Assembly: GCA_024223715.1 (NCBI GenBank)
Contig: JAAEOA010000047.1
Location: forward strand, 1 to 64,000
DNA from: a bacterium
GTDB taxonomy: Bacteria; Krumholzibacteriota; Krumholzibacteriia; LZORAL124-64-63
Direction: 5' to 3'
DNA: 64,000 nt
In this document: in pieces, positions 49,259 to 63,873 of the stretch
How positions within the stretch are numbered: the stretch's first letter is position 1
How the letters are laid out: each line of letters begins with the position of its first letter
Made by a program: the position numbers and the translations under genes
Notes under the pieces: generated by a model
Seen by the model: only the letters and a program-made list of their open reading frames with translations
What the model was told of the DNA's origin: nothing
The model's database searches: none

Positions 49259-49873
49259 ATGACCGCCAAACCCTGGAAAGAACAACAAAAAGCCCACCAG
49301 CGGCGGGAAATCCTGTCAGCTGCCCGTGAGCTATTCATGAACGAAGGCCACACCAAAATGTCCATGCGGAAACTGGCCAAGGCCGTCAATTGCGCCCCCG
49401 GCACACTCTATCTCTACTTCAAAGACAAGGAGCACATTGTCGCTCACCTGATTGAAGAGAGCTTTGAACGACTGATGGTTCAAATGGAAAATCCGCCACC
49501 AAGTACGAACTCTTTGCAGGCATTGCGACACAGCATGGCAATTTATGTCCAGTTCGGCATAGACAATCCTGATCATTATCAGGTGGCCTTTATTGTGCAA
49601 CGAACCAAGGAGATGGATGAAATACGGAAAGCTCCTCATCGTTCTTTTGCTTTTTTGCGTGAACAGGTTACCACATGCGTGGAACAGGAAATTTTTCGTC
49701 CGGTGGATCCCGAACTGGCAACGCAAGGGTTGTGGACCAACCTGCATGGCATAACCTCGCTCATCATAACCATGCCAAATTTTCCCTGGGTGGATAAGGA
49801 TCAAGTATTAAACCACGTAATCGATGGGGCCCTAGCCGCACTGCTTCCTGACAAACAACTGGACCTAAAATAA
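49259..49873 (+). CDS. TetR-family transcriptional regulator
   Basis: RREILSAARELFMNEGHTKMSMRKLAKAVNCAPGTLYLYFKDKEHIVAHLIEESFE. Confidence 0.93.
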   Translation: MTAKPWKEQQKAHQRREILSAARELFMNEGHTKMSMRKLAKAVNCAPGTLYLYFKDKEHIVAHLIEESFERLMVQMENPPPSTNSLQALRHSMAIYVQFGIDNPDHYQVAFIVQRTKEMDEIRKAPHRSFAFLREQVTTCVEQEIFRPVDPELATQGLWTNLHGITSLIITMPNFPWVDKDQVLNHVIDGALAALLPDKQLDLK

Positions 49874-49874
49874 A

Positions 49875-51416
49875 ATGGAGTCGCCAATGAAAACCGATAC
49901 AAAACTCAACAACGAAAACACACCGTCGACAACCAATAGACCTGGTCTTTTTTCCTGGCTTTCGCTCCTTCTTTCAGCTCTCTTTTTGCTGGTCGCAAGC
50001 GGACGCCATACGGTGCCTATTGCAGCCTGGGTTTCCTTACTGTTGATGTTGAATTTCGTTAGATCACAACCCAAAAAAACCGGCTTGCCAGTAGCCTGGT
50101 TAGTGCTCTTTCTAACCTGGGCATTTCAACTTCGAGGCCAGGCTCCGTTACCTGGATTTTTCTATTACGTTTTGTCGGCAACTTACGGACTAATTTTGTT
50201 ATTACCCTTTTTAGCAGACCGGTTTTTTGCAGCAAAATTGAAAGGCATTTCCGCAACTCTCGTCTTTCCCACTTCCTGGGTTTTCATGGAATGGCTCGTG
50301 GCTAGCTTCGCGCCCTACACCAGCTGGGGCTCCATGGCCTACACCCAGCACGAAAACTTGGTATTAATACAGTTAGCTGCTGTTACCGGTTTGTTCGGAA
50401 TAAGTTTTTTGATTGCCTGGTTTGCCTCTGTTGGCTGCCAGGTTTGGGAGGAAAGATCTGGCGGTTTAAGTACCCAGCGAGGGGCCATGGTTTTTGCAGT
50501 GGTTTTTGTTTTGGTATTACTCGGGGGCGGAATTCGCCTGGTCTTGTTTGCGCCCAATGCCCCAACAGTTCGTATCGCTTCCTTAACCGAACCTGATTAC
50601 GATCCCTTCGCTGGAACTGGAGGCAGTGCTGCCGGAGTATATACCGATGAGATATCGCCAAATGATATGGCTACCTACCGAACCAATGCTCAAGCTGTTA
50701 TGGATGATTTATTGGCCCGCGCGGAATTGGAAATTCAAGCTGGAGCCCGCATCATTTTTTGGGGTGAAGCAAATGGCTTTTGTATGAAAGAACACGAACC
50801 GGAAATTATCGAACGGGGCATTCAATTTGCCAAAAAACATGAAATATATTTGGGTTTGTCTCCTGCTGTAATTAATACAGCGGCCAGAAGGCCATTCGAA
50901 AACAAAATCATTCTTATCAATCCTCAGGGTGAAATTGAGTATGAATATTGGAAAGGTAATCCGGTGCCCGGTGGGGAGGCCGCTATTCAGGCAGTGTCGG
51001 ATATGTTGGTCAAACACGTTGATTCACCTTATGGCAGACTCGGCAGTGCCATTTGTTTCGACATGGATTTTCCGGGTTACTTGAGTCAGTGTGGTAAACA
51101 AAAAATTGATATCATGCTGGTGCCTTCGAATGACTGGCGTGAGATCGATCCCTGGCACAGCCATATGGCCCGGTTCAGGGCTATTGAGCAAGGGTTTAAT
51201 ATGGTTAGGCATGTCAGTAAAGGATTTTCGATTGCTACTGATTATCAAGGGAGAGTTTTAGCGAGCATGGATCATTATGTGACTGCTGAGCGGAATTTGG
51301 TTTCTCATGTGCCGACTAAAGGGGTTAACACCGTTTATTCAAAAGTTGGAGATTTGTTTTCCTGGGTTTGTATTGCTGGGTTTGTGTGCTTGGTGATTTG
51401 GGGGCGACGAAATTAA
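49875..51416 (+). CDS. lnt: apolipoprotein N-acyltransferase-like membrane nitrilase
   Basis: N-terminal multi-TM region with WVFMEWLVASFAPYTSWGSMAYTQ, C-terminal nitrilase fold with E (WGEANGF), K (YWKGNPVPGGE) and C (GSAICFDMDFP). Confidence 0.82.
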   Translation: MESPMKTDTKLNNENTPSTTNRPGLFSWLSLLLSALFLLVASGRHTVPIAAWVSLLLMLNFVRSQPKKTGLPVAWLVLFLTWAFQLRGQAPLPGFFYYVLSATYGLILLLPFLADRFFAAKLKGISATLVFPTSWVFMEWLVASFAPYTSWGSMAYTQHENLVLIQLAAVTGLFGISFLIAWFASVGCQVWEERSGGLSTQRGAMVFAVVFVLVLLGGGIRLVLFAPNAPTVRIASLTEPDYDPFAGTGGSAAGVYTDEISPNDMATYRTNAQAVMDDLLARAELEIQAGARIIFWGEANGFCMKEHEPEIIERGIQFAKKHEIYLGLSPAVINTAARRPFENKIILINPQGEIEYEYWKGNPVPGGEAAIQAVSDMLVKHVDSPYGRLGSAICFDMDFPGYLSQCGKQKIDIMLVPSNDWREIDPWHSHMARFRAIEQGFNMVRHVSKGFSIATDYQGRVLASMDHYVTAERNLVSHVPTKGVNTVYSKVGDLFSWVCIAGFVCLVIWGRRN

Positions 51417-52133: not shown

Positions 52134-52457
52134 ATGGAGGATAATATTTTGTCAGCTAATCAAAAATTAAAGGACTTGGCAGTCAGTGATTCAGGATTTG
52201 TATTTGATCCATCCACAGGCACTACTTTCAATGTCAACGTTCCGGGTAGTCGGATATTGGACCTCCTGAAAAATGAAACCAGCTTTCAGGATATCCTGGT
52301 TGCTATCGAAGGAGAATTTGAAGTGGGCAATGCAGACCTGCATCGACATGTGCAGGAATTTTTGGCTTCCCTGGTTTCCTTTGGGTTGATCACCAAGGAG
52401 GAATCTGACCTGATCAGTGCTGAGAACACTGACCAAGTGGATGAGGAATCACCATGA
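52134..52457 (+). CDS. PqqD-like (RRE-type) protein
   Basis: LAVSDSGFVFDPSTGTTFNVNVPGSRILDLLKNETSFQDILVAIEGEFEVGNADLHRHVQEFLASLVSFGLI; first gene of coupled operon. Confidence 0.75.
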   Translation: MEDNILSANQKLKDLAVSDSGFVFDPSTGTTFNVNVPGSRILDLLKNETSFQDILVAIEGEFEVGNADLHRHVQEFLASLVSFGLITKEESDLISAENTDQVDEESP

Positions 52458-53533
52458 CCGCCGCAATAAACATTGTCGGAGTAACTGCCCTGAACGCCAC
52501 CGACAATCCAGGACCCGGAGTAGCTGTGGCTCGTTCTCTGCGCAATGATTCTGCTTTTACAGGACGAATTATTGGTCTTGCTTATGACGCTCTTGATCCG
52601 GGTGTTTATGCTGGTCTTTTTGATGCCATCTACTTAATTCCCTATCCCTCCGAAGGCCAAGAGGCTTTGGGAAATCGACTGGCTTACATAGTCGAACAAA
52701 CCGGAATGAATGTCTGCATTCCCACTCTTGATTCAGAGTTACCAGGGTTTATTGCCCTGGAAAAGAAACTGCAGGAACTTAAAGTGGCCACTTTCATGCC
52801 AACCAGTGATCAGTTTGCCATGCGAAGCAAAGAACGGTTGGATGAACTGGGAAATGCCGCCTCTGTTTCAACACCGGACCAGGTGGTAATTACCAGTGCT
52901 GATGAGTTGTATAACATTCATACTCGTATTGCCTTCCCATTGGTAGTCAAAGGTATTTTCTACGGCGCGGAAATTTGCCACACCCTGGATCAGGCTGTCA
53001 AAGCCTTCAACAATGTGGTTGCCCGTTGGGGAGTACCGGTCATTGTTCAGGAGTTTTTGGACGGAACTGAATTTGACGTGGTAGCTGTCGGCGATGGTGA
53101 AGGTGGTTTGATTGGCGCAGTGCCCATGAAAAAAATGCAACTTACGGACAAAGGCAAAGGCTGGTCGGGTGTCGTGGTCTCCAGTGAAGAGCTGGCGAAA
53201 ATGACCACCGCTTTTATGAAAGCAACTCGCTGGCGAGGACCCTGTGAATTGGAAATCATGGAAACAACCGACGGCAGATACTTGCTGTTGGAAGTAAATC
53301 CCCGGTTCCCAGCCTGGTGTTATCTGGCCTATGGGGCAGGATTGAATCTGCCCCTGGCGGTAGTGCATCTGTCACAGGGGAAAGAGGTTGAAGAGTTTGG
53401 AACTCCCGAAGTCGGGGCCATGTTTGTCCGCATTTCATTGGATCAAATAACTCATATTAATGCTTTTGAACAAATTGTCACTTCGGGTGAATTTCATCCT
53501 GAACCTGACCAACCTGAAGAGGATACAAAATGA
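52454..53533 (+). CDS. ATP-grasp ligase-like protein
   Basis: FPLVVKGIFYGAEICHTLDQAVKAFNNVVARWGVPVIVQEFLDGTEFDVVAVGDGEG..; GPCELEIMETTDGRYLLLEVNPRFPAW; ATGA overlap with the upstream gene. Confidence 0.88.
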   Translation: MTAAINIVGVTALNATDNPGPGVAVARSLRNDSAFTGRIIGLAYDALDPGVYAGLFDAIYLIPYPSEGQEALGNRLAYIVEQTGMNVCIPTLDSELPGFIALEKKLQELKVATFMPTSDQFAMRSKERLDELGNAASVSTPDQVVITSADELYNIHTRIAFPLVVKGIFYGAEICHTLDQAVKAFNNVVARWGVPVIVQEFLDGTEFDVVAVGDGEGGLIGAVPMKKMQLTDKGKGWSGVVVSSEELAKMTTAFMKATRWRGPCELEIMETTDGRYLLLEVNPRFPAWCYLAYGAGLNLPLAVVHLSQGKEVEEFGTPEVGAMFVRISLDQITHINAFEQIVTSGEFHPEPDQPEEDTK

Positions 53534-54891
53534 ATTTATCAACTTCCAAAGTACCATACGAAAAACCTCTCATGGTCAAACACGTGACCGGCATGATGAA
53601 CAAATTTGGTAGCAACCCGGCCTTTGTGCCCCTTGAGGAAATTGACGGAGTGCGCGTTTCGAGCCTGGTGGAACAATATGGTTCGCCACTGTTTGTCTTT
53701 TCGGAGAAAACCATTTCAGCCAAAGTGCGCGAATTGCGCGATGCTCTTGCCTTACGCTATCCCAAATCAAGAGTGGCCTGGTCCTACAAAACCAATTATC
53801 TGGATGCCATTTGCCGTATTCATCACAATGAAGGCTCCTGGGCCGAAGTGGTTTCGGAATTTGAGTACGACAAGGCTGTGCGCAATGGTGTCCCTGAAAA
53901 CCGGATCATTTTTAATGGTCCTTACAAAACCGGCGAAGCTTTGAGCAAAGCCTTTAATGGCGGAGCCATCGTTAACCTTGATAATTTCGATGAATTGGCT
54001 GAAGCCGAACGGTCGGCTGCCAATTTTCCTGAGCCCCCTTCGGTGGGAATTCGACTGAATATGTCGACTTCCTCAACTCCTCATTGGAGTCGGTTTGGAT
54101 TCAACCTTGAAAATGGCCAGGCCCTTGATGTGGTGAAGAGAATTCTCGCCGGTGGCAAATTGCAGATCAAAGGCTTGCATTGCCATTTGGGCACCTTTAT
54201 TCATGCCACGGAGGCATATGGGGAAGTGGCGGCCAAGATGGCCAGATTTGCAAATTTATTGCGGAACGATCATGGTATCACAGTTGATTATCTGGATCTT
54301 GGTGGCGGGTTTGCCTCGGAAAATACGCTGCACAGCCAATATCTGCCCGGTCAACAGGCCACACCACCATTGAGCCGGTTTGTTGAAGAAATTACCGATG
54401 GGTTGCGGGAATTGGATTTCCCCAGTGATTCCATGCCCACCCTGTTTCTGGAAACCGGCCGCGCGCTGGTAGATGCTTCGGGGTATCTGATCACAACCGT
54501 TGTTGCCAACAAAAGACTACCAGATGGCCAGCGGTCTATTATCATCGATGCGGGTGTATCCTCGCTGTTTACCTCGTTCTGGTACAAACACGATGTGGTG
54601 CCTGCCCAACCAACCAATGGTTTGCCTGAAACGGCAGTGATCCACGGGCCCTTATGCATGAACATTGATGTGATGCGTCCTGCCCTGGTCTTTCCTCCGG
54701 TTGATCCCGGTCACAAATTGATTTTCAAAAATGTGGGTGCCTATAATGTGACCCAGTGGATGCAGTTCATTACCTATCGGCCGGCCGTTGTTTTGGTATC
54801 GCCCGATAGTGAACATTCCATTATTCGCAAAAGGGAAAATCTTGAGACAGTGGTTGAACGGGAAGAAATGGCACCATGGCTTTCCAAATGA
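53530..54891 (+). CDS. PLP-dependent fold-type III decarboxylase (diaminopimelate decarboxylase-like)
   Basis: RVAWSYKTNYLDAICRIHHNEGSWAEVVSEFEYDKAVRNGVPENRIIFNGPYK; GLHCHLGTFI; DLGGGFAS; FLETGRALVDASG; ATGA overlap. Confidence 0.9.
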   Translation: MNLSTSKVPYEKPLMVKHVTGMMNKFGSNPAFVPLEEIDGVRVSSLVEQYGSPLFVFSEKTISAKVRELRDALALRYPKSRVAWSYKTNYLDAICRIHHNEGSWAEVVSEFEYDKAVRNGVPENRIIFNGPYKTGEALSKAFNGGAIVNLDNFDELAEAERSAANFPEPPSVGIRLNMSTSSTPHWSRFGFNLENGQALDVVKRILAGGKLQIKGLHCHLGTFIHATEAYGEVAAKMARFANLLRNDHGITVDYLDLGGGFASENTLHSQYLPGQQATPPLSRFVEEITDGLRELDFPSDSMPTLFLETGRALVDASGYLITTVVANKRLPDGQRSIIIDAGVSSLFTSFWYKHDVVPAQPTNGLPETAVIHGPLCMNIDVMRPALVFPPVDPGHKLIFKNVGAYNVTQWMQFITYRPAVVLVSPDSEHSIIRKRENLETVVEREEMAPWLSK

Positions 54892-57062
54892 TACCCAATG
54901 ATGACCCTTCCGAACGCGGAAAAACCGGCATTTTGCTGGACTCCATCCTGTTTGGATATTCGGAAATTTTCTTTGCCCGTCATCGTCTGGTCGGGTTGAT
55001 TTTCCTTTTGGCCACCGTTGTGCGTCCACTGGGAACATCAAGCCATAACCTGATGCATGGGCATTGGGCGGCTCTGTGTGGATTGGGCTCCATTGTTCTG
55101 GCCAATGGTCTGGCCCTGCGCCTGAAAATGCACCCGGATTCTGTGCGTGAAGGATTTATGGGTTACAACGCCCTGTTGGTGGGGTTGGCCATCCCTTCTC
55201 TTTTTGAACCTTCACCTGCCATGTTCTTTATGCTTCTGATTTCGGTGGTAGCGGTAGTTTTTGTGACCACCGGATTGCGCACCACTCTTGGTTATCACTT
55301 TAATTTGCCGGTACTCTCGGTGCCGTTTTTGTTGGTGATTTACTCCACCATATATTCCCTGCCAGTAATGCGCACTTTGGAGTTGCATGAATCCTGGTTG
55401 GATTTTGGTACCACAATTCCTTTTCTACCCGATTTCCTTTCAAGTTACCTGCAGGCCCTGGGGGCGGTCTTCTTTGCCCCCAATGACTATTCCGGCGGGT
55501 TGATTCTGCTTGGGCTACTGATTTTCAGTCGGTATGCTGTTTTTTTGACCATGGTGGGATTTGGCGGCGCCTGGATTATGGTGAACCATGTTTTTAATCT
55601 GCCCCAACAGGACCTGTCTCTGTATATAGCCTTCAATTTCATGTTGACCACTCTGGCCCTCGGTGGAGTCTGGTTTGTTCCCCAGCGTTCCTCTTTACTG
55701 TTGGCCGTTGGTGGCATGCTGATTTGCGCAGCCGTATTGGCCGGTACCAGCGGCATGATGACTGAATTAGGACTTCCCGTTCTTATCCTGCCCTTCAATG
55801 TGACAATGCTTTTGATGCTGCCGGCATTAAGGCAGCGTACCGAAGACAATGAACCCAAATCCGTCGATTTTATTTCAGGGTCACCTGAAGCCAATCGCGA
55901 CTTCTACAAAACCCGACTGGCCCGCTTCGGAACCCGATTTTCCCAACGAATTGAACTGCCTGTTCGCGGAACCTGGACCTGCACCCAAGGAGTGGATGGC
56001 GATCTGACCCACAAGGGTCCCTGGCGTCACGGCTTTGATTTTGAAGTGGCCGATCAGGATGGAAATTTTCATTCCAACGCGGGCACCAGCAGAGAAGACT
56101 ATTTCTGCTGGAAGCTGCCGGTCCTGGCTTGCGGAGCAGGGAAAGTTGTTCGCATTGTGGACAATGTTCCGGACAACGACATCGGTGAAATCAATACCCT
56201 TCAGAACTGGGGAAACCTGGTGATGATTGAGCACGCCATAGGACTGTACTCCGTAGTTTGTCATCTGGCAAAAAATTCCGTGAAAGTGACCGAAGGAGCC
56301 TTGGTCCGATCGGGTGATGTTGTTGGTTTCTGTGGCAGCTCCGGTCGGTCGCCCAAACCTCATCTGCATGTGCAATTGCAGGCCACCCGGCGCATTGGTG
56401 CTCCAACTATTCACGGGGAGTTTCAGGATGTTGTGCTCCAACAGAAGCAGCTTGAACTGCGAACTGTGTTGGTGCCTGATGAAGGACAAAAGATCCGCCG
56501 TATTGATCGTCAGGATGAAGTTGCGGAATTGTTCGACTTCCCATTGGGACGCACCCTGATTTGTGACGTCAGCCTGAATGGCAAATCATGGCGTGAAAAA
56601 ATTGAAACGGAAATGGATTTGTATGGAAATCTCCGGTTGGTTTCCAGTGATCAAAAGGCAATGCTGTTTTTCGAAAACCGCCTCTCTTCATTTTTGGTTC
56701 TGGACTATCAGGGACCAAAGCAAAGCGCTTTGTTTGCCATGGCTTGCGCCATGTCCAGAGTGCCCCTGGAAGAGAGCTCCCGGTTGGAATTTTCAGATGT
56801 TCTTCCATCACATAATTTTTTGTCGGGAGTTCGGCGATTGTGGGGAGACTTGAAGTCGGGTAATATCGGCCCTTCGGTGAATATTGACTATTGTTTTGTG
56901 CGCCGTGGAAATGATTTGATAATCAGAGGCCAGGGAGAGGACTCCCTTGGTGGTCAATTCACTACTCAGGCCGTTTTTAAAGAAGGTGTCGGAGCTTCCG
57001 AATTCTCTTTGACCACTTCGTCTCTGGATATGAAAGTTGTAATGGAGCAAGATGATGGCTAA
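54876..57062 (+). CDS. urea transporter (UT)-like membrane domain fused to M23 (LytM) metallopeptidase-like domain
   Basis: UT-like REGFMGYNALLVGLAIPSLF and GLPVLILPFNVTMLLMLPAL; M23-like RHGFDF...VCHLAKNSVKVTEGALVRSGDVVGFCGSSGRSPKPHLHVQL. Confidence 0.85.
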   Translation: MAFQMIPNDDPSERGKTGILLDSILFGYSEIFFARHRLVGLIFLLATVVRPLGTSSHNLMHGHWAALCGLGSIVLANGLALRLKMHPDSVREGFMGYNALLVGLAIPSLFEPSPAMFFMLLISVVAVVFVTTGLRTTLGYHFNLPVLSVPFLLVIYSTIYSLPVMRTLELHESWLDFGTTIPFLPDFLSSYLQALGAVFFAPNDYSGGLILLGLLIFSRYAVFLTMVGFGGAWIMVNHVFNLPQQDLSLYIAFNFMLTTLALGGVWFVPQRSSLLLAVGGMLICAAVLAGTSGMMTELGLPVLILPFNVTMLLMLPALRQRTEDNEPKSVDFISGSPEANRDFYKTRLARFGTRFSQRIELPVRGTWTCTQGVDGDLTHKGPWRHGFDFEVADQDGNFHSNAGTSREDYFCWKLPVLACGAGKVVRIVDNVPDNDIGEINTLQNWGNLVMIEHAIGLYSVVCHLAKNSVKVTEGALVRSGDVVGFCGSSGRSPKPHLHVQLQATRRIGAPTIHGEFQDVVLQQKQLELRTVLVPDEGQKIRRIDRQDEVAELFDFPLGRTLICDVSLNGKSWREKIETEMDLYGNLRLVSSDQKAMLFFENRLSSFLVLDYQGPKQSALFAMACAMSRVPLEESSRLEFSDVLPSHNFLSGVRRLWGDLKSGNIGPSVNIDYCFVRRGNDLIIRGQGEDSLGGQFTTQAVFKEGVGASEFSLTTSSLDMKVVMEQDDG

Positions 57063-58230
57063 TGGCCAACGACAAAAATACTTTGTGCTGATGGCCATTC
57101 TTGTTATTCAGGGAATTTTTTCTGGTACGGTTTCTGGGATCTCAGAAGTTGATCAACTCCTGGAATCCCAGGATTATTCAACAGTGATGGCCGCAGCCGA
57201 ATCTGCTCTTCAAAGAAGTGACTATAAAAGTGCATATTTTCTTTATGAGCGAGCCCATTTCCTGTCTGGTGGAAATATCGATTCATTGATGGGCAAGGCA
57301 GTGATGAGTTTAGAACTGGCCCGATATTGCGAAGCCCGTGAACTTTTTAACCAGATCTTGTCGAAAAGCCCAGGCCACGTAAAGGCCAGGGAATTTCTTG
57401 CCACTTTGGAAAGACCCACCACCTGGACTAACTTCTCCTTTTCAAGTCATGACTATCTGAATGATTTGTATAAGGAATCGGCTTTGGGTTTCTTGCTGGG
57501 AACACAATTCCCTGTTTCACAAAACAGTACAGCGGCGATACACCTAAGGCACACTGGATTTGAAATATTTAGTCCCCTTGAAATGGGATTGGGGGAAGAC
57601 AGTGAACCCCAAACAATGTCCCAGAATGAAGCTTGGCTCAAATACTCAACCGGCACTGATTGCACATCTTTGGCTATCCATTTGGCCGGATTTCAGAATG
57701 ACAGCGGGTGGAATGAAAAGGGATATGTGTTCGGCACTGTTCTTCATTTGGACAAAATATTGAATTGGCAAGCTGCTGGAATCGTTACTCGTTATGTTGA
57801 CGAAAGTGACCTGGCCCAATTTGATCTGTCGGGCACAATGAAAAACCTTCTCCCCCATTTGAATTTGACTTCAGGTCTTTCCATTCAAGACTTACTTTCG
57901 AGCCCTTCGTTTAGTTATTTGGGGTCGGCACTTTGGTATACTGATAATTTGTGGGCACGAGGAACAGTACGTATCGGGGAACAAATCAGGCCGGTGCGTT
58001 TGGAAGATCCCTCGATTTATAACATACAACAAACGACCAACTGGTCTGCCGGATTTGAATTTGGCGTGCCCATTGGCCGAGGATGGAGTTTGAGTGGTTC
58101 TCTCGAGAAACAGGAATATGTCCGATCGGCCTTCCAATACAGGGACACCCAAAATGAGATTAATAAAACTTATCCTGAAGAAATCAGTCATTTGGTTCTT
58201 CTCACTGCCGGGATTACTTATACCCCGTAG
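57052..58230 (+). CDS. TPR + YaiO-like outer-membrane beta-barrel protein
   Basis: TPR-like SDYKSAYFLYERAHFLSGGNIDSLMGKAVMSLELARYCEARELFNQILSKSPGH followed by amphipathic barrel ending VLLTAGITYTP; overlaps the upstream stop by 11 nt. Confidence 0.75.
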   Translation: MMANGQRQKYFVLMAILVIQGIFSGTVSGISEVDQLLESQDYSTVMAAAESALQRSDYKSAYFLYERAHFLSGGNIDSLMGKAVMSLELARYCEARELFNQILSKSPGHVKAREFLATLERPTTWTNFSFSSHDYLNDLYKESALGFLLGTQFPVSQNSTAAIHLRHTGFEIFSPLEMGLGEDSEPQTMSQNEAWLKYSTGTDCTSLAIHLAGFQNDSGWNEKGYVFGTVLHLDKILNWQAAGIVTRYVDESDLAQFDLSGTMKNLLPHLNLTSGLSIQDLLSSPSFSYLGSALWYTDNLWARGTVRIGEQIRPVRLEDPSIYNIQQTTNWSAGFEFGVPIGRGWSLSGSLEKQEYVRSAFQYRDTQNEINKTYPEEISHLVLLTAGITYTP

Positions 58231-58285
58231 AAGGTATTCATTGGCAGCTAAACCCGTCCTTTCAATAGATTACAGGAGTTGGACA

Positions 58286-58942
58286 ATGAAAAAAATTCGG
58301 ATCAAACTGACCAGACAATATTTTCCGGGCATATCCGTTTTGTTGTTTATGGCCTTCTGTTTGGTCCCTTTGGTTTCAAATGCTTTGGAAACTACTGTGG
58401 CGGAAGTTTACAGCCAGTCCTATGAGCAGGAATATGCCGGGTATTACCAAGCTGCTGTGGCCTCCATGAACCGCTTGCCAGTAATGGGTGAAACCGGGTA
58501 TGAATTTCATTTGCGACTGGGGTGGCTTAACTATCTTGCAGCAGATTATGATGCCTCCATTGCAGCTTACCGGCAGGCGATCGAGTTAAAGAACAAGGCC
58601 ATTGAACCAAAACTCGGAATTTTGAAGCCGCTGATGGCTTTACACAAATGGCTGGATTCACTGGATGTGATAGACATTATTTTGGTGAAGGATTCAGGTA
58701 ATTATCTGGGGCGTAGCCGGCAGGCTTATTGTCAGTTTCAATTAGGGCGTTTCAGTCAGGCTGTGACGACTTATCGTGATGTATTGGAAGATTACCCGGG
58801 GGATATTGAAATGATCTCGGGCCTGGGATGGTCCTTGTTGCGCAGTGGCGATACAGTTTCAGCAAAAATTGAATTTGAGAAAGTTTTGAGGATTTGGCCC
58901 GAATATGAAACGGCCAAAAGCGGAGCTGAGGCTTGTCGATAG
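58286..58942 (+). CDS. exported TPR protein
   Basis: signal sequence; EFHLRLGWLNYLAADYDASIAAYRQAIELKNKAIEPKLGIL; QFQLGRFSQAVTTYRDVLEDYPGDIEMISGLGWSLLRSGDTVSAKIEFEKVL. Confidence 0.85.
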   Translation: MKKIRIKLTRQYFPGISVLLFMAFCLVPLVSNALETTVAEVYSQSYEQEYAGYYQAAVASMNRLPVMGETGYEFHLRLGWLNYLAADYDASIAAYRQAIELKNKAIEPKLGILKPLMALHKWLDSLDVIDIILVKDSGNYLGRSRQAYCQFQLGRFSQAVTTYRDVLEDYPGDIEMISGLGWSLLRSGDTVSAKIEFEKVLRIWPEYETAKSGAEACR

Positions 58943-60200: not shown

Positions 60201-60273
60201 CATGAGGTGTCTTTTTTTTTGAAATGTACAGACAAGGTATACAACAAGAACCGGCTGACCATTGGGAGCAGGC

Positions 60274-61509
60274 ATGAAAAAGATAATAATAGTTGTTGTT
60301 TCACTCCTAGTGCTTACAGCAATCGCAGCGATACTAAAAAGACAGGATTATTTTAGTGGGAGCAGCATTTCTTATTCTTTCACAACAACTGAAGACAAAG
60401 CCAAAATTCCTTTCACAATGGTTGGCAATCATATCACCTTCACGGTATCAATAGAAAAATCGGAACCACTAAATATTGTCCTGGACACCGGGATGCCAAT
60501 GCCCAATGAGATAATGTTGTGGAATTCTGAAAAAATTGAAAACCTGCATCTCAACTATTCCGACAAAACAGAACTACAAGGCGCAGGAGGTGATCGAGAA
60601 AAAATCTTTTCTCAAATCGCAAAAAAAATTCCTGTAACCTTAGACGAAATCGAATTTCATGATTTGAATATCATGGTAGTACCCCGGATGGACGCGTTTG
60701 CTGGTCATTTTGATGGCATAATTGGAGCAGCGTTTTTCCGGAATTTTGTAGTGGAAATAAATCACGACGACATGATGATTTACCTTTATGACGAAAACAC
60801 CTTTCTACCAAAATCCCAAAGCGGCGCAATTCCCTTTCAGATGGAAGACCGTTTTCCCAAATGTACTGTCGAACTAGCCGTGGATGATAGAATTATTTCA
60901 ACAGATCTTGTTATTGATTTGGGCGCGAGCCATGTCCTGTCCCTGAACACGGAGAACCTGGATGATTTTCAATTGCCCGACAAGACAATAAAAACAGCTT
61001 TAGGAAAAGGACTCAGTGGAGTTATTTACGGGAATATTGGACGAGTTGAGAAAATCAACGTGGGTGGCTTCGTTTTTGAAAACATTGTTGCAAGGTTCCC
61101 TGCTCCTGATCAACAACGGAAAATGAGTAAGGTCGAAAAGAATGGAAACCTTGGAAACGGTTTCTTCAGTCGGTTTAATGTCACGTTTGATTATTCAAAC
61201 AAAGTGCTGTATTTGGAACCAAATCAGGGACATGGCGACCCCTTCGAATTTGATATGAGTGGTATTCGGATAAAAGTGCGTGAAGCTGGAACATTTTTGG
61301 TAACCGAAGTAATTGAAAATAGTCCCGCTGCGTTGGCAGGTCTCGAACAGGACGATGTTATCGTCAGAATTAACGACAATTCAACTTCAGAATTGACAAA
61401 AGTTGAGTTTTTTCAAATGTGCAAAATTGAGGGTGAAACCTTGAACTTTTCAATTCAACGAAGCAATGAACCAATCGAAGTTTCCTTTAAGTTAAAGAGG
61501 CTGATTTAG
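60274..61509 (+). CDS. retropepsin-like aspartyl protease with C-terminal PDZ domain
   Basis: VLDTGMPMPNEIML, LVIDLGASHVLSLN, IGAAFFRNFVVEINHDDMMIYLYD, PDZ GTFLVTEVIENSPAALAGLEQDDVIVRIND. Confidence 0.82.
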   Translation: MKKIIIVVVSLLVLTAIAAILKRQDYFSGSSISYSFTTTEDKAKIPFTMVGNHITFTVSIEKSEPLNIVLDTGMPMPNEIMLWNSEKIENLHLNYSDKTELQGAGGDREKIFSQIAKKIPVTLDEIEFHDLNIMVVPRMDAFAGHFDGIIGAAFFRNFVVEINHDDMMIYLYDENTFLPKSQSGAIPFQMEDRFPKCTVELAVDDRIISTDLVIDLGASHVLSLNTENLDDFQLPDKTIKTALGKGLSGVIYGNIGRVEKINVGGFVFENIVARFPAPDQQRKMSKVEKNGNLGNGFFSRFNVTFDYSNKVLYLEPNQGHGDPFEFDMSGIRIKVREAGTFLVTEVIENSPAALAGLEQDDVIVRINDNSTSELTKVEFFQMCKIEGETLNFSIQRSNEPIEVSFKLKRLI

Positions 61510-61833
61510 GAGCTGAAAAAACAGGCCTACCGCCTGTGCGGCTGGTCTCAAATCGCCTTTTTTTACAGTAGGGCTAACAGTATTAGCACTCAACATGATT
61601 GACCATCCCAAATATTCCATCCAGTGAAAATCCTGGAGTGAAGGCCCATGTTTTAGATTTTTCCCGGATGGAACAAATGGCAGAAACCAAAGCAATGGAG
61701 TTCTGAGGAGGATGTTGGTTTTAGTTTTCCATTTGTTTTCTGGAAATCTTTTCAAATAAACCTCGTCATTGTTGTGTATCCCAATATCTGGTATTTTAGA
61801 TTTTCAGCATTTATCCGATGGGGAGGCAAAGCA

Positions 61834-63873
61834 ATGAAAAAATATTCCCTGGTATTGGTTACTTTTGCTGTTGTAGTCGGCATAATGTATTCTCTATCCA
61901 ACCAAAAAACCGAGTCTGTCACAGGCGATTATTTCTTTGCAATTACCAGCGCCGGTGTTCTCAATGGCTATTCAGTTGTTGATACCTCTTTAACTTTTGA
62001 AAATGGCAAACAGATCCTTTTGCTGGAGCAAAGGGCCTACTCCCAGGGAAAGCTTCTGGGTAGAGAATTTGATAGTAACGTTGAGCTGGTTTACCACATT
62101 GATCCTCAATCCGGCCAATTTATTTTTTGCGAATTTGAAGTGGACAATGGGCAAGGGATATATTCAGCCCAAATAAAAATTGAGGACGAAAAGGCTCATT
62201 GCGAAAGTTCTTTTGGAGTAAAAAATCAGGTGGTTGATTTGCCTGTCGACGTCCTTTTGGAAAACCCACTATTTCATAAAAACATTCTTAAAGATTTTAG
62301 TCAGACAGATTTAAAAGAGAAGGTCTATTCGGCTTTTGATACCACAGACCAAAAGATTCAGGATGTTAAATTTTCATTTGCCGGCCATGAGGAAATAGAA
62401 CTTGCTGGAAGAGAATACAGCACGATCAAGGTAGACAGGGAAAACCTCGAAACTGGAGTTATTATTAGGCTGTGGCTTGATTCAGAATCGGGAATCTGCG
62501 TCAAGATATTGGAAAATGAAGGCCGGGTTATCTATTTGGCTGATAGTTCGCTAGCCAAGGAGGTGGAACGATTCGATTCCGATCCTTACATTTTGACCAA
62601 AACCAACGTTTCCATCGCCGACATTTGCGGAATCAGCTACATGAAGGTGCGAGCCAAACTCAAACCCACCGGAGTTTTGGCAACTCCTGAAAGTCTGAAT
62701 GTACAGGGTCAAAAATTTTCTGGTACTGTTGAGAATAATTTGATTGAAGGAATTTTCGAAATTGAACATTCCCACTATAATGGCCAAAATGCGCCGCCTT
62801 TTCCTCCAATTTACAACAATGATCCGGATCTTGTCGGCTACTTGCAACCAAGTGAAATGACTGAATCAGATTATCCGCCAATAGTGGCCAAGGCTGAAGA
62901 ACTAACCTTAGGCTCTGCAGATTCCTGGGAAGCAGCTTGCCGCTTGAGTAAATGGGTTTCCACCGAAATAGTTTATTCCATTCCAGGTGGCGGAACCGCC
63001 AAAGGAGTTTTTGAGGCGATGGCCGGTGAGTGCGGTGGGCACTCGGTTCTTTTGGCCGCCATGTGCCGGGCAGTGGGTATTCCAGCCCGAATGGTTTGGG
63101 GCGTTACCTATGTGCCCAATAAGGGCGGCATGTTCGGGCAACACGGCTGGAACGAAATATTCATGGGAGAAGCTGGCTGGATACCGGTTGATTCCACGGG
63201 TCCCGAAATTACCTTTGTTGATTCTGGGCATATTCGCTTGGGAACTTTTGATTCTTTTGCGACCTATGCCAATGGTAAGGAATTTGAAATCATCGATTTT
63301 CGATTGGCCGGGGATACTGAAGAATCCTCTGCAGCCGCCACCGTCAAATATGAAGCTTTTCTGGGCGAGTATTCGTCACCGGGAAAAGGCAAACCGGCTA
63401 AAGTGTTCACTGAGGGAGGCAGTCTGGTTTTTGATCTACCAGACAACATTGCTTTGGCTCTGAACGACCCCGATGAAAAAGGGCATTGGTACAGCAAGCT
63501 TGCCCGCCACATTTATCTGACTTTTGACCAAGATGATTCGGGCAAGGTTGTTGAAGCTCAAATACACGAAGTTTATCGATTACCCAAGAAACCGGGACCT
63601 GCTGCTTGGTCTGAAGAAGTACCAGAACAATACCGCGCCTATGTGGGAAATTATTCCTTATTAGAAGCAAATGTTGAATTCGTCATTAGTACTAATGGGC
63701 GGGGCTTGCAAATGTATCACCCTCTGACCAAAACAACTTCCTCGTTGCGGTCGCCCAACGATGAAGGTGGCTGGGTGGCAGATAATAACCGGCACACCAT
63801 TTTTTTTGAACGAGATGACGATGGTTTGGTTTGTGCTATGACTATCGATGGTGTCAGCAGGTATAAGCGGTAG
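61834..63873 (+). CDS. exported transglutaminase-like protease-fold protein
   Basis: GTAKGVFEAMAGECGGHSVLLAAMCRAVGIPARMVWGVTYVPNKGGMFGQHGWNEIFMGEAGWIPVDSTGP (Cys-His-Asp triad pattern). Confidence 0.9.
   Translation: MKKYSLVLVTFAVVVGIMYSLSNQKTESVTGDYFFAITSAGVLNGYSVVDTSLTFENGKQILLLEQRAYSQGKLLGREFDSNVELVYHIDPQSGQFIFCEFEVDNGQGIYSAQIKIEDEKAHCESSFGVKNQVVDLPVDVLLENPLFHKNILKDFSQTDLKEKVYSAFDTTDQKIQDVKFSFAGHEEIELAGREYSTIKVDRENLETGVIIRLWLDSESGICVKILENEGRVIYLADSSLAKEVERFDSDPYILTKTNVSIADICGISYMKVRAKLKPTGVLATPESLNVQGQKFSGTVENNLIEGIFEIEHSHYNGQNAPPFPPIYNNDPDLVGYLQPSEMTESDYPPIVAKAEELTLGSADSWEAACRLSKWVSTEIVYSIPGGGTAKGVFEAMAGECGGHSVLLAAMCRAVGIPARMVWGVTYVPNKGGMFGQHGWNEIFMGEAGWIPVDSTGPEITFVDSGHIRLGTFDSFATYANGKEFEIIDFRLAGDTEESSAAATVKYEAFLGEYSSPGKGKPAKVFTEGGSLVFDLPDNIALALNDPDEKGHWYSKLARHIYLTFDQDDSGKVVEAQIHEVYRLPKKPGPAAWSEEVPEQYRAYVGNYSLLEANVEFVISTNGRGLQMYHPLTKTTSSLRSPNDEGGWVADNNRHTIFFERDDDGLVCAMTIDGVSRYKR

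Follow-up and report, generated by a model that had tools for sequence, protein, structure and literature searches.

What does a PqqD-like protein bind when its gene stands directly ahead of an ATP-grasp ligase and a LysA-like decarboxylase, and what might such an operon make and move? We addressed this question for a locus in a 64,000-nucleotide stretch of DNA from a bacterium of the Krumholzibacteriota (hereafter the window). The features of the locus are as follows.

52134..52457, + strand: PqqD-like RRE protein, 107 aa (Pfam PqqD, E=1.3e-9)
52454..53533, + strand: ATP-grasp carboxylate-amine ligase, 359 aa, ATPgrasp_Ter / carbamoyl-phosphate-synthase-like (ATPgrasp_Ter, 7e-12)
53530..54891, + strand: LysA-like alanine-racemase-fold PLP decarboxylase, 453 aa, citrylamino-acid decarboxylase type (Orn_Arg_deC_N, 1.3e-28)
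53557..53610, + strand: leader-like recognition motif YEKPLMVKHVTGMMNKFG, decarboxylase residues 10-27 (family conservation)
54876..57062, + strand: UT-M23 fusion, 728 aa, a urea-transporter-type channel with an M23 metallopeptidase and a beta-rich C-terminal domain
54939..55823, + strand: UT channel domain, UT-M23 residues 22-316 (Pfam UT, 1.5e-47; dvUT 3k3f/3me1, 1.9e-43)
55956..56396, + strand: M23 metallopeptidase domain, about residues 361-507 of UT-M23 (Pfam Peptidase_M23, 1.5e-13)
57052..58230, + strand: gene 5, secreted TPR and putative outer-membrane beta-barrel protein, 392 aa (TPR matches)
58286..58942, + strand: gene 6, secreted TPR-repeat protein, 218 aa (TPR matches)

A first-pass annotation had described six closely joined genes on one strand, and all six plus-strand open reading frames were recovered along with their junctions: the first three genes are joined by ATGA overlaps (52454 and 53530), the next two junctions overlap by 16 bp (54876) and 11 bp (57052), and 55 bp separate the fifth gene from the sixth. 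The domain identities that it had assigned (PqqD, ATP-grasp, decarboxylase, UT plus M23, and TPR) were each matched by Pfam, and all four core genes score below the curated equivalog cut-offs of NCBIfam. Its label of a YaiO-like barrel for gene 5 did not hold, as no YaiO family match was found at E<0.1 in Pfam or NCBIfam. We describe gene 5 as TPR plus putative barrel, with the barrel call resting on a linked family present at other loci.

Conservation and distribution of the operon

About 40 independent loci contain the PqqD–ATP-grasp–LysA-like–UT/M23 quartet, and most of them also encode a TPR protein and an outer-membrane barrel. About 45 neighbourhoods were mapped, with the genomes being mostly metagenome assemblies. 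In 40 independent loci the sequence extends 3 kb or more upstream of UT-M23, and in 37 of these the PqqD, ATP-grasp and LysA-like genes lie on the same strand and in the same order. The gene-neighbourhood analysis that the first-pass annotation had proposed thus shows that the genes are co-conserved, with the first four in order at those 37 loci. A TPR gene is nearby in 38/47 loci and a barrel gene in 35/47. This gene arrangement is far from chance.

Co-occurrence was examined across sampled genomes. The UT-M23 fusion is present in 37 of 399 sampled Pseudomonadota genomes when a wider profile is used (about 9%). A narrower profile finds it in 16 of 369 genomes from the class to which the Cellvibrionaceae relative belongs. 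The LysA-like family occurs in 40 of the same 399 genomes, 35 of them with UT-M23 and five with LysA only, while UT only is seen in two (Fisher p about 2e-42, uncorrected for common descent). The core families are also correlated in their pairwise distances, with r=0.81-0.96 overall and r=0.96 for both the LysA-UTM23 and the ATP-grasp-LysA pairs. Taken together, the conserved order, the co-occurrence and the distance correlation point to the quartet being one co-inherited unit. In the window's own phylum UT-M23 is found in only 3 of 80 genomes, all three of which contain the same operon, and this scattered occurrence suggests that the operon was acquired there by transfer from elsewhere. Plasmid searches did not find the UT-M23 fusion, and no PqqD/ATP-grasp/decarboxylase set surrounds the best plasmid matches examined.

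There are several variations on this arrangement. Loci L129-L131 contain the PqqD/ATP-grasp/LysA trio with no adjacent UT-M23, which indicates that the export module is separable. A two-component pair precedes PqqD in L051, L053 and L055. An extra AsnB-like gene and a UT-TPR-UT protein are present in L117, L118 and L120.

The decarboxylase tail and the PqqD-like protein

The LysA-like enzymes have about 37 residues ahead of the fold, and these contain a conserved tail, [Y/W]xxPx[L/I/M]…GxxNKFG, that reads [Y/W]-x-[K/P]-P-x-[L/I/M]-x-x-[H/L/F]-x-x-G-x-x-N-K-[F]-G over columns 10-27. The motif is matched by 36 of the 41 full-length decarboxylases, with the other five being degenerate. Mean information per column is 2.92 bits in the tail motif, 1.33 in the linker that follows and 3.19 in the enzyme core, and judged by these values the tail is conserved in the manner of a short binding motif. 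When compared with published RRE targets, namely [Y/W]xxPx[L/V/I/F/A] (PMC13381572) and W/Y/LxxP/L/I (PMC12710340), the tail fits the motif that is bound by PqqD-type RiPP recognition elements (RREs). The tail sequence gave no match in the PDB, and the AlphaFold model of the LysA-like enzyme is weak, with low confidence in the tail and also in the C-terminal domain, so it carries no weight in our analysis.

The other partner in this proposed contact is the PqqD-like protein, which in the window scores 38.7 bits against a Pfam PqqD cut-off of 23.4. The family profile matches the solved RREs TbiB1 (1e-9), FusB1 (TfuB1), PbaB1, PqqD and LppB in the PDB; a sixth PDB match is the PqqD entry 5sxy. 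Published contacts of LppB show that the leader is bound by N33 and D70 and that F74 divides the pockets. With the register fixed by profile alignments to TbiB1, FusB1, PbaB1 and LppB, these positions hold N in all 41 members of the PqqD-like family, D in 31 and F in 40. The window protein keeps the equivalents of N33 and F74, as N35 and F76, and has a His at the D70 position. Eight members have A, G or S at the D70 position and all eight pair with WExP- or WDPP-type tails, a pairing that we regard as suggestive. When PqqD columns were screened for a split between Y-type and W-type tails, a single weak column emerged. From these alignments we infer that the PqqD-like protein is a putative [Y/W]xxP-peptide binder, with its motif lying on the neighbouring enzyme. 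This resembles the discrete RREs of lasso and LPP pathways (TbiB1, FusB1, PbaB1, LppB), which share the wHTH RRE fold, the same contact residues and a [Y/W]xxPx[L/I/M] target. In contrast to those systems, the target here is on an enzyme and not on a precursor peptide, there is no B2 protease, and an AsnB-like gene is present only in three side loci.

The first-pass annotation had also proposed looking for a small precursor peptide near the locus. A DNA pattern for the tail matched 34 of 36 W-type genomes, mostly once (two matches came from one two-cluster genome), and gave one match each in 6 of 9 Y-type genomes, while a reversed control pattern gave one match in total across the scanned genomes. 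At every mapped locus the matches fall at the decarboxylase start, so that in about 40 genomes the motif occurs once per gene cluster and always on the decarboxylase. No separate precursor peptide with the tail motif was found in the roughly 40 genomes scanned by this pattern, and for these genomes we reject a separate precursor of the motif-bearing kind, as the motif is confined to the decarboxylase gene. Since the motif occurs once per cluster at the decarboxylase N-terminus, the PqqD-like protein most likely holds the decarboxylase rather than a free peptide. A decarboxylase homologue that is leaderless (L132) has no adjoining PqqD or ATP-grasp.

These results bear on a classical RiPP pathway, in which the RRE, ATP-grasp and decarboxylase would modify a small precursor encoded elsewhere, with the decarboxylase tail being incidental. 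The homology of the RRE with lasso and PQQ chaperones and the AsnB-like gene of three related loci speak for such a pathway. However, we consider it quite unlikely given that in all 40 genomes where the motif was matched it lies on the decarboxylase alone, and that the median intergenic gaps within the quartet (-4, -4 and +2 bp) leave no space for a precursor gene.

A second alternative is that the tail is itself modified, or serves as a swinging arm. In that case GxxNKFG would be presented by the RRE to the ATP-grasp enzyme, which would load an amino acid onto it; the decarboxylase that bears the tail would then act on the tethered amino acid, much as BtrJ/BtrK work on the carrier BtrI, and the M23 domain would release it. 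This idea draws on the NKFG segment, which lies past the RRE-contact part and is as conserved as the contact part, and on the homologue BtrK, which acts on a carrier-bound amino acid (PMC7857480). We nevertheless find it rather unlikely, as the tail Lys gives way to Arg in L057 and to Thr in L129-L130, L131 reads INTFA over this segment, and no precedent is known for a carrier formed by an N-terminal tail of the enzyme itself. Our preferred reading is still that the tail is a docking site for the PqqD-like protein.

Predicted chemistry of the ligase and decarboxylase

The decarboxylase family profile matches N-citrylornithine decarboxylase (7kh2) with 299 bits and DAP decarboxylases with 217 or less. 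Key residues of the window enzyme are K87, C376-M377, T348, W351, Y352 and Y405, among which Met377, Thr348, Trp351 and Tyr352 are invariant in 41/41 decarboxylases. FigC has a Met after the catalytic Cys, and has Thr/Thr/Tyr where other members of the family rely on Asp or Arg to accept DAP or free basic amino acids (PMC7857480). The citrylamino-acid decarboxylase type (FigC, SbnH, AcsE) is defined by a non-acidic residue after this Cys and by no Asp/Arg in the specificity helix, and the enzymes of this family have both features. A true DAP decarboxylase was ruled out, given a curated LysA score of 199.9 against a cut-off of 297.9 and the presence of T348 at the R343 position and of M377 after the catalytic Cys in 41/41. 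The score with the curated FslC NCBIfam model is 227 against a cut-off of 500. The grouping with N-citrylornithine decarboxylase, and not with DAP decarboxylase, suggests a chemistry of ligation followed by decarboxylation on an amino-acid conjugate. The FigC citrate contacts H357, R387 and N389 are lost, being I379, Q409 and M411 here (Met/Leu in the family), and with the C-M, T, W and Y residues kept but the citrate contacts changed, the substrate is probably an amino-acid conjugate, but not a citryl one. The obvious candidate for making this conjugate is the ATP-grasp enzyme, which has an intact E-x-N-P-R metal site and has the carbamoyl-phosphate-synthase-like 2pn1 as its closest PDB entry.

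Two known systems are informative in this regard. As in rhizoferrin synthesis by FigA/FigC (FslA/FslC), a ligase would make an amide conjugate on which an alanine-racemase-fold decarboxylase then acts. That system differs by using an NIS synthetase instead of ATP-grasp and MFS export, by having neither an RRE nor a leader tail, and by the citrate contacts that are absent in this operon. BtrJ/BtrK of butirosin synthesis are likewise an ATP-grasp plus LysA-like decarboxylase pair, but they act on the carrier protein BtrI, which has no counterpart in the operon, and the butirosin pair has no counterpart of the RRE. The kinship with rhizoferrin raises the prospect of a siderophore-type pathway giving a rhizoferrin-like citryl amine, with FigC being the nearest relative of the decarboxylase. 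We consider this very unlikely because the FigC citrate contacts are not conserved and no IucA/IucC synthetase or siderophore receptor was noted adjoining the loci.

A variant of the operon is also instructive. In L112 and L114 the trio is absent and a fold-type I Orn/Lys/Arg decarboxylase and a different ATP-grasp are located beside the same UT-M23, with no PqqD. The same pair is present in L049, where the contig begins 100 bp before UT-M23. This fold-type I decarboxylase is related to M. tuberculosis Rv2531c, the activity of which is unknown (PMC12910592). The replacement indicates that an ATP-grasp plus an amino-acid decarboxylase is the requirement and that PqqD is tied to the tailed enzyme. 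By analogy, the variant mirrors rhizoferrin synthesis, where two routes are known that differ in whether the amine or the ligation comes first, with the putrescine-first alternative (PMC7857480) resembling the fold-type I form of this operon.

Proposed export and a model of the pathway

The UT domain scores 162.6 bits with Pfam UT and 107.9 with NCBIfam urea_trans_yut, for which the cut-off is 274.6. Positions aligned with dvUT Q24 and E187, which we take to be urea contacts, are variable across the family. The M23 metal and catalytic residues H379, D388, H463, H496 and H498 are invariant (47/47). Both the dvUT urea transporter and the M23/LytM peptidase folds are recognised here with the M23 metal ligands intact, and the differences from these proteins are that both are fused in one chain, that the Q24/E187 positions are unconserved and that the M23 domain is predicted to be cytosolic. 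Specifically, positive charge is concentrated in four places, namely the N-terminus, the stretch following TM2, the T1b-T2b loop and the segment directly behind the last helix, so that both ends of UT-M23 and the M23 domain should be on the cytosolic side. Both ends of animal UT-B are cytosolic. One UT-M23 loop near residue 140 disagrees with the charge-based topology, and the AlphaFold model of UT-M23 is unusable (pLDDT 38).

M23-domain relatives in Haladaptatus and Thermomicrobium are located behind N-terminal membrane helices and have no signal peptides, which argues that murein is not a likely M23 target. This matters for cell-wall remodelling, in which the LysA-like enzyme would act on DAP or a DAP peptide, the M23 domain would cut murein and the UT channel would move a by-product. 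The intact M23 catalytic residues speak for such a role, but we give it only a slim chance: the DAP determinants are lost from the decarboxylase, charge bias points to a cytosolic M23 domain, and its close relatives include haloarchaeal proteins. We know of no murein in archaea. The cell-wall-linked product that the first-pass annotation had entertained is therefore weakened by the predicted cytosolic placement of the M23 domain.

The barrel family linked to the operon, which replaces gene 5 at other loci, is 270-355 aa in length and ends with a C-terminal Trp in 32/32 members, a residue typical of outer-membrane barrels at this position. In L061 a TolC-type gene follows UT-M23 instead of a barrel. 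These observations, together with the features of UT-M23, favour export over uptake. They also make plausible the earlier suggestion of export through the transporter-peptidase fusion and the barrel.

We lean modestly toward a model in which an RRE organises a pathway that uses no precursor peptide and yields a small amide-linked amine, with export by UT/M23 and barrel/TPR proteins. The conserved residues on both sides suggest that the PqqD-like RRE would bind the LysA-like decarboxylase by its [Y/W]xxP tail, tethering it into a complex with the ATP-grasp enzyme. The ATP-grasp would couple an amino acid, of which a diamino acid is the probable kind, with a carboxylic acid, and the decarboxylase, going by its active-site residues, would strip the carboxylate from this conjugate as FigC does in rhizoferrin synthesis. 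Family type and linkage further suggest that the UT-type channel with its M23 hydrolase domain would move, and perhaps trim, the product across the inner membrane, and that the TPR protein and barrel would carry it across the outer membrane. The idea of a modified amino acid or peptide product thus fits as regards amino-acid chemistry, and is not supported as regards a separate precursor peptide.

In many gammaproteobacterial loci PqqD is fused to a TetR-type HTH (TetR_N 2e-9 in L113 and 1e-6 in L098). A more specific reading, which we hold tentatively at a little short of even chances, is that of an RRE with an enzyme client, where capture of the leader-like PLP decarboxylase tail would yield a peptide-free assembly line, decarboxylase level could control the operon in the TetR-fused branch, and the product would leave via UT-M23.

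The first-pass annotation did not recognise this combination as a characterised pathway, and none was matched in the literature that we searched. Searches of the open-access PMC literature with combinations of PqqD, ATP-grasp, urea transporter, M23 and decarboxylase retrieved no description of the operon, and no studied example of a channel-hydrolase fusion such as UT-M23 was found in the literature searched. An operon that is this common (about 9% of sampled Pseudomonadota genomes) yet undescribed in that literature would point to a new and widespread exported metabolite. Genome mining uses RREs to find RiPPs on the assumption that they bind precursor peptides. If it is true that this RRE serves an enzyme, then a precursor-less class of RRE loci would be explained and leader motifs would be a general docking code.

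Genes flanking the operon

Upstream of the six-gene operon, window positions 49259-51416 encode a TetR regulator and, after it, a protein resembling apolipoprotein N-acyltransferase, the latter assignment scoring below the cut-off. A stretch of about 0.7 kb in which no gene is evident lies between this pair and the operon. Downstream, window positions 60262-63873 encode two proteins, as judged from the sequence alone: the first has aspartic-protease-like motifs and ends in a PDZ-like C-terminus, and the second is transglutaminase-like. In the comparison neighbourhoods L117, L118 and L120 the operon is adjoined by an AsnB-like amidotransferase and by a protein in which TPRs are inserted between two urea-transporter halves.

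UT-M23, relatives of its peptidase domain, and decarboxylases at other loci

The beta-rich C-terminal domain of UT-M23, the urea-transporter-type channel fused to an M23 metallopeptidase, is without a Pfam match (window 56508-57059). Membrane-anchored M23 proteins from haloarchaea and Thermomicrobium (L133:4692-5618, L134:3674-4717), one of them adjoined by nitrile hydratase genes, share ~40% identity with the UT-M23 peptidase domain and apparently face the cytosol.

At three loci UT-M23 is adjoined by an unassigned ATP-grasp gene paired with a fold-type I Orn/Lys/Arg decarboxylase related to M. tuberculosis Rv2531c:

L112:2422-6668, fold-type I decarboxylase and ATP-grasp pair
L114:10162-14720, fold-type I decarboxylase and ATP-grasp pair
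L049:3182-6165, fold-type I decarboxylase and ATP-grasp pair

At L132:8128-14689 a relative of the LysA-like decarboxylase that lacks the N-terminal tail belongs to a four-gene set, possibly a defence-type island, whose other members encode TIR-like and HEAT-like proteins and an AAA ATPase.

PqqD fused to a DNA-binding domain

At L098, L103, L113 and other loci the PqqD gene encodes a single protein combining a TetR-type DNA-binding domain with the PqqD RRE, which may be a regulator that senses a leader-bearing enzyme.
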